64,000 nt of DNA. Origin: Nannobrachium achirus. Its lineage: Eukaryota > Chordata > Actinopteri > Myctophiformes > Myctophidae. Under the pieces are notes generated by a model. That model saw nothing but the letters and a program-made list of their open reading frames with translations, ran no database searches and had not been told where the DNA came from. This document shows positions 39,301-42,300 of the stretch, piece after piece. Each line of letters opens with the position of its first letter. Position 1 is the first letter of the stretch. A program made the position numbers and the translations under genes. The stretch spans positions 27,699,862-27,763,861 of the forward strand of contig OY997649.1 in assembly GCA_963921795.1 (NCBI GenBank). The letters run 5' to 3'.

Positions 39301-42300
39301 GATGCTTATGAGTGGAAAAACTGCCTGCACAGAAAATAATCTATTTATGTTTGTTACATTTTAATTGTTATTGTGAATTTATTAGCATAATCAAAGACCT
39401 GAAGGATATTCTGAAGTGAAGGTATGTTAACATTTTGCAGGGCTTTCAAAAACATCATTGGTGTTTTGGCGGATGGGAACAACGATATGCAACAACACAG
39501 CAATAAGTATATAGCATTTGCAGAAATTATTTGTGTCTTGGTACAAAACTTCTATGAAAATATGTTTGTTACCACAGAATAAATCAGGCTTCACTTTATC
39601 TATTAGCAGGTCCAATGAGAATGCTACTCTCCTGTCAAACACGACCCTGAGTGATTTCCAGATTATTTCTAATCTTGGAGAAGATGAGTTTGGTCACATA
39701 GACCTTGTAAGTTCTGCCCTTGAAGAGGGTCATTTACAGACCACCTTTATTCCCAGTGGTGCACCCAGGATTCTATGTTTCTATAATGCAATCTATCGAT
39801 TTCTATGTCCTCCAGGTGCAACTGAAGAGCAATGTCAAGCGTTCTTTTGCTATGAGGGTGCTTAGCAAGAGACTCATTGTTAACAATCGTCAACAAGACC
39901 ACATCCTGAGAGCGAGAGACATCCTTATGGAGGCATACTGTCCATTCATAGTCAGGTGTGCACCAAACAAGAAGAATCTTCCTCTGCTTCTTTATTTTAT
40001 ATTGTTAATCATTTCTAATAACATTGTTTTTAATATTGTTCACTGCTCTCAATATTGTAAAGCAATTTCAGCTCTCCCATGCAAAACAAAAAGCATTTTT
40101 TTTGCATGGGAGATGCCATACCAAAGAATATACAAAACAAAGTAATTATTAATTTAACGTTTCATCTTTAATTGACCTCAGGCTGCACCGAACCTTTAGA
40201 GATGCCAAGCACCTGTACATGTTAACAGAAGCCTGTGTTGGTGGGGATCTTTGGAGTTTGCTAAAAGAAAGGTAGTCATTGTTGCATTAATAGATATATA
40301 TATTTGAAAAATGCTTCACTCCTATGTCCTATCTCCATGGAAATAAAATAGTATTTGTTCCACAAGCATGCTCTGGTTTAAGCTTTGGGATGGTACAAAT
40401 TTGAGTTTAACTTATGACTGTTGATTGTACACTGCCCTACCTCTGTCTTTTCTCAGAGGATCCTTTGATGACTGCAGCACTAGGTTCTACACTGCTTGTG
40501 TTGTTGAGGCGCTGATCTTCCTTCACCATTGTGGCATTATTTATAGAGACCTGAAGCCTGAGAATGTACTTATGGACCAAGATGGATACGCTAAATTAGT
40601 AAAGATAATGAATCTTCAAATGTATTATGTCATTGGGAATTCTCTGCATTATTAGGTGTGTAATGGGAATCTATATACCGATTTCTTTTTAATTGAAACT
40701 CTACTGCCTCCTGCCTCCTCCTTTTATAGATGGGACCTGGATGCTCAAAGAAAATCAGTGTGGGTAAGAAAACTTGGACGTTCTGTGGTACACCAGGCTA
40801 TATGGCCCCTGAGGTCATCCTGAACAAGGGCCATAGCATATCAACAGATCTCTGGTCACTAGGCATTTTCATGTTTGAACTGCTGACTGGAAGGTATGAT
40901 TTGAGATTTGTTTTTAATTACAGTATTAATACGAATTTAAAGTGTTTTTCTCCCTCTCTTTATGAGAACTGATGATGCATCTCACTTTCCTCCACTCTAT
41001 AGCCTTCCATTTAGTGGCTCTGATCCAATGAGGACATTTGCTGCCACCATTCGTGGCATTGACCAGGTCAACTTCCCTAAGGCCATCAGTAAAAGTGCCT
41101 CCAGCCTCATCAAGAAGTTGTGCAGGTATGGCTTACACAAAAAACACGTTCAGTTAATTCTGAATTCATTGAATAATTGATTACTCAATCTATCTTGTAA
41201 AAAATAAAATAATATGTAGTACAGTATTTACAACCTCATCAAAATGTAAAAGCTTGTCTTTGTTCCATATTAAAAAATTAACAAATCTATTTCAAGATAG
41301 ATTTGTTGCATGCATTACAGAATGATGCATTTCCCATCATTTTGTACTTTATCAACTTCATGAAGTGTATTTGTATTGCATTTACTACACAAGGCAAGTC
41401 AAAGTGCTTTACATAAGGCATAAAATGGCATTTAAAGACATTAAAGGCATTTAACCCTATAAGGACCAGAATTCCATTAGTATACCAGTAAGACACCTAA
41501 GGGCAAAAAGCAACCTCGCCCTAAAGGGTGAGGTCGCAGTCGTGCCATCTGTCTTGGCCATATATGGATTCTGTCGTCTGACATAATACAAACCCTTTAT
41601 GCCCATATATGGAGATTCCTTTTATGCCCATATATGGAGATCCCTGCTCTGAGTATCTGACATCACTGTGATGTCACCTGTGACGTCACAGTGATATGTC
41701 AGGGGAACCACAGTATTAGGCGTTGCAGACAGACAGAGATACGGTCAAGCTGTGACAGTAGTTCACATACCAAACTGGGACCTACGCTTGCAATAATGAC
41801 AGACTTTTTGCTATTTATTTCCGTATAATTTCCATGATGGACATAAGATTTAAAAATGTTATTAATGAACCATCAGGAAATATAACAAAGAAATTCTGTT
41901 ATAGGCAATGGTGCCATGCCATTTCAGCGTTTTTTGTTTGTTAATTTGTGTTTGTGTTTGTTTTTTACTCACTGAGTAAAACATTTACAAAAAAAATAAA
42001 ATAAAATACTGTACATCAGTGACTGACTGCTAAAGCATTAAATGTACAATGGAAGTACTTAGAACTCTTGCGTTTTGTGATTTTAATCAAATTGCAATTT
42101 TAGAATAGCCTACCCTCTCTGATAAAGCTTGACATATCTCTCAGAAAACGTATTCTATCTTGCTCAGTGTCATATTTGTTTACTAGAGCCAGTTCTTAAT
42201 CAATTTCAAATGTCCTTTTCTCAAGTTCAAGTTTGTGTCATGTTCCATTTGAAGCATCAATAGCTCCGAGTTAAAACTGGCAAAAGCAATACAGGAATTC

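Follow-up and report, generated by a model that had tools for sequence, protein, structure and literature searches.

The window, the whole 64,000-nucleotide stretch of Nannobrachium achirus DNA analyzed here, carries a PKG1-type gene that is probably an old pseudokinase, maintained in euteleost fishes, which would do without phosphotransfer and modulate or titrate active PKG through zipper dimers and docking sites. The gene is intact, it shares residue changes that run through a clade of fish proteins, and the domains of these proteins have diverged unequally.

In the window, 19 coding exons join into a single gene on the + strand (33301-43626) encoding 682 aa (Table 1), and the in-frame closure given in the preliminary description was borne out by the exon joining: all introns are GT-AG (18/18), the phases close, and neither a stop nor a frameshift occurs before the terminal TGA. 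The gene encodes an intact PKG1-beta-type protein, and its 18 introns rule out a processed pseudogene. Within this protein, the zipper, pseudosubstrate, two cNMP domains and AGC kinase are present in the order of the PKG (PRKG1) family. A search of solved structures matched the kinase part to the PKG1 chain 6bdl (E = 1.3e-106); in a preliminary search with an incomplete exon join, the regulatory part matched the PKG1 chain 4z07 (3.1e-75) and the N-terminus matched 3NMD (1.3e-17), described in a passage of PMC9417419 as the PKG I-beta zipper. Pfam analysis of the orthologue P0003 returned Pkinase and two cNMP stretches, whereas the family for the zipper, PF16808, scored 32.2 bits and so fell short of its cut-off of 35; NCBIfam and Rfam returned nothing useful.

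Table 1 Exons of the PKG1-type gene and likely start of the gene downstream, with positions in the window
Feature	Position	Strand	Remarks
Exon 1	33301..33481	+	Beta-type leucine zipper, residues 1-60; PKG1 zipper match
Exon 2	33667..33784	+	Auto-inhibitory segment; Thr74 (33705-33707) at pseudosubstrate P0 Ala
Exon 3	33977..34143	+	Start of cGMP-binding domain A
Exon 4	35484..35597	+	Site A phosphate cassette; Tyr188 (35579-35581) in place of conserved Arg
Exon 5	37233..37338	+	End of cGMP-binding domain A
Exon 6	37654..37717	+	Start of domain B
Exon 7	38051..38128	+	Domain B
Exon 8	38773..38867	+	Domain B, FGEKAL of cassette
Exon 9	39228..39293	+	Domain B cassette; Arg312 (39238-39240) and Thr313 retained
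Exon 10	39441..39506	+	End of domain B, linker
Exon 11	39610..39706	+	Glycine loop GEDEFG, residues 375-380 (39677-39694)
Exon 12	39816..39955	+	R398 at VAIK lysine (39855-39857); A417 at alpha-C Glu (39912-39914)
Exon 13	40182..40271	+	
Exon 14	40457..40598	+	Catalytic loop YRDLKPEN retained, residues 490-497
Exon 15	40730..40893	+	G510-P511-G512 replaces DFG (40733-40741); TWTFCGT and APE retained; PEY Glu replaced by Gly531
Exon 16	41003..41125	+	C-lobe
Exon 17	43164..43226	+	C-lobe
Exon 18	43328..43394	+	End of C-lobe, start of C-tail
Exon 19	43519..43626	+	C-tail ending NWDKDF, then stop
Likely start of downstream acyl-CoA synthetase gene	51371..51526	+	Resembles C-terminal end of annotated active Anguilla protein P0083

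Elsewhere in the window, exons of a dynamin-1-like (DNM1L-type) gene lie on the - strand at 11107-16488, where Dynamin_M was found in four pieces, one of them below cut-off; the one piece searched had a dynamin-1-like protein as its nearest solved structure. Exons of a UBL4A-like gene, with ubiquitin and Tugs domains, lie on the - strand at 27379-28491. A palindromic repeat around GATCTACAAGCTC was matched 20 times (up to 2 mismatches), against 0.19 matches expected in the window, with copies at 10562-10614, 15014-15054, 38462-38514, 54399-54429, 55191-55243, 59601-59653 and other places. It forms six inverted pairs with starts 16-38 bases apart, one copy lies in intron 7 of the pseudokinase gene, and it looks like a family of short hairpin transposable elements.

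Three protein searches, each with several thousand matches of which the best 120 were listed, yielded 220 different proteins, the third adding none. The chimeric sturgeon entry P0008 was left out of the trees and counts, which with the window protein made 220 rows. In the tree of these rows, 101, the window included, fell into one clade with full local support; because several isoforms per species are included, the clade holds fewer than 101 species. P0032, P0117 and the window protein carry no species name in this set, and the named members are all euteleosts, their source names covering salmonids, Osmerus, Aplochiton, Polymixia, Lampris, Centroberyx and percomorphs. Among the best 120 matches listed, carps, herrings, pikes and cods were represented by active copies only, an absence that does not prove loss of the clade's copy there. 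The window protein is 57-63% identical to 19 active prkg1-like copies among the matches listed. For the clade member P0032, a 680-aa frame occupies a contig no longer than 2496 bases from the source 'lgn', which we take to be assembled sequencing reads; since this contig is too short for introns of the size found in the window gene, a spliced transcript is suggested as its origin.

The preliminary description had read GEDEFG at residues 375-380, R398, A417 and G510-P511-G512 as lesions of the ATP site, with YRDLKPEN and TWTFCGT retained, and all of these were recovered in the window protein, together with the exon borders at 40598 and 40730. No frame across 40541-40790, the DNA around intron 14, encodes DFG, and on this ground a hidden DFG-coding exon or another splice choice was rejected. 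Across the clade, the DFG Asp is absent from every row (0/101; Gly 97, Ser 3, Ile 1) and present in 119/119 other rows, while the VAIK Lys, invariant in those other rows (119/119), is Arg in 92/101 clade rows and Lys in 9/101. Some of the nine members with Lys (P0007, P0016, P0018, P0019, P0039, P0062, P0065, P0074 and P0087, all without the DFG Asp) are probably reversions from Arg: the tree requires 7 or more changes at the VAIK position, which suggests repeated swaps between Lys and Arg. The P+1-loop Glu (GTPEY) is replaced in all 101 clade rows (Gly 93, Asp 8), and the glycine-loop change G378E occurs in 94/101. The alpha-C Glu is present in 100/101, with Ala, one base change from Glu, in the window alone; Gly377 of the glycine loop is present in 95/101 and is Asp in the window.

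Thus the four ATP-site losses, put forward earlier as one package, have to be taken apart. The alpha-C change belongs to the window only, the pattern of the glycine loop is for the most part peculiar to the window, and nine members retain the VAIK Lys. The idea that orthologues share the lesions stands for the DFG loss and largely for the Lys-to-Arg change, stands in part for the glycine loop (through G378E), and fails for A417; of the Lys, Glu and Asp whose intact forms were looked for in orthologues, the Asp was found in none, the Lys in nine and the Glu in all except the window. Loss of the P+1-loop Glu, loss of the site-A Arg and the pseudosubstrate Ala-to-Thr change are further clade traits beyond the earlier claim. 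Other parts of the kinase are well kept, with the HRD Asp in 100/101, the catalytic-loop Lys and Asn in 96/101 and 95/101, and the activation-loop Thr, APE Glu and alpha-F Asp each in 101/101. A kinase that has lost at least one of the VAIK Lys, HRD Asp and DFG Asp is classed as a pseudokinase, and the window gene lacks the Lys and the DFG Asp. Without these two residues and the alpha-C Glu, the window protein should be incapable of normal phosphate transfer, and from the sequences we infer that the clade is catalytically inactive.

The cGMP switch has also changed. In a passage of PMC9417419, the inhibitory sequence of PKG I-beta is given as KRQAIS, with Ala where the Ser/Thr of a target would stand; this P0 Ala is Thr in 98/101 clade rows (Ala 2, Leu 1). 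The phosphate-binding Arg of site A is gone from all 98 clade rows with letters at this position (98/98; His 76, Tyr 10, Gln 8, others 4), and the Arg of the site-B cassette is kept in 82/101, window included. According to the same source (PMC9417419), Gln at the conserved site-A Arg activates PKG (R177Q in I-alpha, R192Q in I-beta), and R177Q weakens the cGMP affinity of site A more than 100,000-fold. Binding of cGMP at site A of the clade is probably poor, as it is in the human R177Q mutant. By a residue test (the Arg loss) and not a binding test, site A does not qualify as the cGMP-binding site of a PKG, and we therefore place the gene among pseudokinases derived from PKG and not among functional PKGs. 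The scatter of residues at site A could be explained by relaxed constraint after the loss of catalysis, which accounts less easily for the near-uniform change of Ala to Thr.

To compare the domains, 20 species were picked among those with both copies, and uncorrected mean pairwise differences, which are not rates, were calculated. Residue 1 was excluded because variable start sites of the active paralogue distort the zipper ratio. Over residues 2-47, the zipper differed by 0.024 in the clade vs 0.051 in the active paralogue (ratio 0.46, site-bootstrap 95% 0.16-0.88), and for residues 2-43 alone the interval of the ratio reaches 1.01. The kinase differed by 0.238 in the clade vs 0.071 in the active paralogue (ratio 3.4, 2.7-4.3), and altogether the kinase, site A and the linkers showed 2 to 4 times more difference than in the active paralogue, which points to weaker constraint there. 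The zipper starts with MGTLRDLQ in 99/101 clade members, and in the window 40/47 zipper residues equal those of gar PRKG1 (P0209) and 39/47 those of the active Lampris copy. On these comparisons, the zipper, the dimer and docking end, appears as the most constrained part and the catalytic end as the one that has drifted, a pattern expected if dimerization or docking matters. Of the 162 C-lobe positions, 63 reach 95% conservation or more within the clade, compared with 120 among the active rows; 9 C-lobe sites carry a residue shared by 85% or more of the clade that differs from the one in the active rows.

Neutral evolution was simulated on the window's own branch (0.23 changes per residue, 36 splice dinucleotides, 2000 runs). 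Neutrality expects 7.7 stops and 7.9 splice-dinucleotide hits, and none of either was observed; the P of no stop was 0.001 and 0/2000 runs were free of both, figures that are conservative in that indels were left out of the simulation and that count every splice-dinucleotide hit as damaging, which is not always true. If only a quarter of the branch was neutral, the chance of neither a stop nor a splice hit is 0.03. The gene thus looks like a maintained copy, not a dead one. The claim of a maintained pseudokinase is supported by the complete loss of the DFG Asp, the Arg at the Lys position in 92 members and the strongly conserved zipper. The further claim that this is no randomly dying pseudogene holds for the clade, for which a relaxed pseudogene is rejected by the zipper-bearing proteins, the unequal domain divergence and the neutral simulation. 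The window copy differs privately at 6 of the 159 sites that elsewhere show 97% conservation or more, which ranks it 8th of the 101 rows, level with three others (median 1), and gives a recent relaxation in its own lineage some small probability. AlphaFold predicted the regulatory half confidently in both an orthologue and the active control P0149, computed with the same 53 sequences, and the kinase half at equally low confidence in both, so the prediction for the kinase half says nothing either way about the fold.

Most likely, the gene is one of the two copies that the teleost duplication made of the fish prkg1-like gene. In a tree built from 49 selected sequences, with true PRKG1 as the root, active prkg1-like copies formed a B clade (bootstrap 100), active copies of Elopomorpha and Osteoglossomorpha formed an A clade (bootstrap 84), and the pseudokinase clade was recovered with a bootstrap of 91. 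The AU test gave 0.54 for A with the pseudokinase clade, 0.65 for the clade outside A and B, and 0.047 for B with the clade, which disfavours grouping with the B copies and leaves the other two placements both acceptable; a reduced set gave 0.40, 0.72 and 0.10. At the 7 residues separating A and B copies, the clade mostly agrees with the A copies at four and with the B copies at one or two, the others matching neither; R41 was ruled out as a shared derived state because it also occurs in the gar prkg1-like copy. Downstream of the gene, AMP-binding matches in three pieces, none of which reaches the Pfam cut-off, lie on the + strand at 51371-57186 and mark what is presumably a long-chain type acyl-CoA synthetase gene. 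The annotated Anguilla A protein P0083 closes with sequence similar to the likely start of this gene (66% along 53 residues; with the tail as the sole query E is 0.012, within the whole protein 1.1). This shared neighbour, in a comparison that covered the Anguilla A copy, favours the clade as the euteleost A copy. The unusual C-terminal tail of P0002, the orthologue from Polymixia, matches a stretch at 49757-49846 (+) at 63% along 30 residues (E 3.8e-8), and this tail may be annotation running into conserved intergenic sequence.

Given the residues lost and the domain conserved, we consider it probable that the clade protein works without phosphotransfer, its Mg-binding DFG aspartate being gone and its ATP lysine mostly Arg. 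Its zipper, hardly different from the one in active beta-type PKGs, would allow homodimers or mixed dimers, and by occupying PKG docking sites the protein may modulate or titrate active PKG. Site A would be poor at cGMP binding, and Thr74 in the auto-inhibitory segment could be modified by a partner kinase. Mixed dimers, docking competition, phosphorylation of Thr74 and a constitutive cGMP-like site A are what we infer for its action. PMC9417419 reports that dimers of dead and active PKG I-beta assemble in cells and that the inhibitory segment of the dead chain acts in trans no more than modestly; a strong dominant-negative effect need not follow, then. We tentatively add the proposal, which we would not yet count as likely, that the protein is a natural PKG interfering subunit: a zipper-bearing dead duplicate whose site A may be held closed, or cGMP-like, by loss of the residue that is mutated in human aortic disease, and whose pseudosubstrate has turned into a substrate. 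In mixed dimers this chain would be phosphorylated by active PKG of euteleosts and would retune the cGMP threshold of that PKG.

Other readings were weighed against this modulation of active PKG. The protein might be a homodimeric scaffold or anchor whose zipper docks PKG partners and whose kinase fold holds another protein, leaving active PKG unaffected. The recruitment of partners by the zipper in known PKGs (as described in part of PMC9417419) fits such a role, as do the 63 conserved C-lobe positions and the 9 sites with a clade-specific residue; however, with a zipper so near that of active PKGs themselves, pairing would be hard to avoid where both are expressed, and we regard a pure scaffold as unlikely. 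That the protein is still a kinase of an unorthodox kind, with slow phosphotransfer through its intact catalytic and activation loops, seems very unlikely. Kinases without the DFG Asp, such as CASK, can retain some activity, and the HRD Asp, the catalytic-loop Lys and Asn and the activation-loop Thr are nearly or wholly invariant in the clade, but the DFG Asp is missing from all 101 rows, the Lys is Arg in 92, the P+1-loop Glu is replaced throughout (in 8 rows by Asp), and the window copy lacks the alpha-C Glu as well. We give least credence to a functionless duplicate that is decaying with its frame still unbroken. The divergence outside the zipper, which exceeds that of the active paralogue, and the changes private to the window (A417 and part of the glycine loop) would suit decay, whereas the 99 zipper-bearing rows, a zipper that varies less than the active paralogue's, and 18 intact introns with no stop speak against it.

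With PKG I-beta (PRKG1) and the active fish prkg1-like proteins, the clade shares the beta-type zipper, auto-inhibitory segment, two cGMP domains, AGC fold and C-tail; it differs from them at the DFG Asp, the pseudosubstrate Ala, the site-A Arg and the P+1-loop Glu, and usually also at the VAIK Lys. Among pseudokinases, KSR has Arg at the Lys position and CASK has GFG at DFG; PSKH2, KSR and CASK belong to other kinase families and are without cGMP-binding domains. Like the paralogue pseudokinase PSKH2, as portrayed in a section of PMC9988210, the clade keeps the kinase fold and has lost canonical residues. The predicted pairing of a catalytically dead chain with an active one resembles that of the engineered kinase-dead PKG I-beta chain (PMC9417419, in part); unlike this laboratory mutant, the fish chain is a separate natural gene in which site A and the inhibitory segment have also changed. 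As in PRKG1 R177Q / R192Q of human aortic aneurysm (same source), the site-A Arg is replaced, in 8 clade proteins by the same Gln, but the human kinase is constitutively active and the fish kinase predicted dead.

Among the hits listed for openly licensed papers, none describes a fish pseudokinase of the PKG family. The zebrafish gene prkg1l appears in PMC12498267, in a passage where inactivity is unmentioned. Two candidate papers were rejected because their relevant parts concern other proteins, namely the pseudokinase domains of guanylyl cyclases in PMC6694467 (along with abstracts on R177Q mice) and FAM20A in PMC9998435. The source names of the clade proteins, mostly "cGMP-dependent protein kinase 1", give no hint of inactivity, and studies of NO/cGMP signaling in fishes may therefore count a dead copy as active. 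The clade offers a natural experiment on the parts of PKG that can be lost, with catalytic, site-A and pseudosubstrate residues changed and the dimer and docking end nearly fixed.
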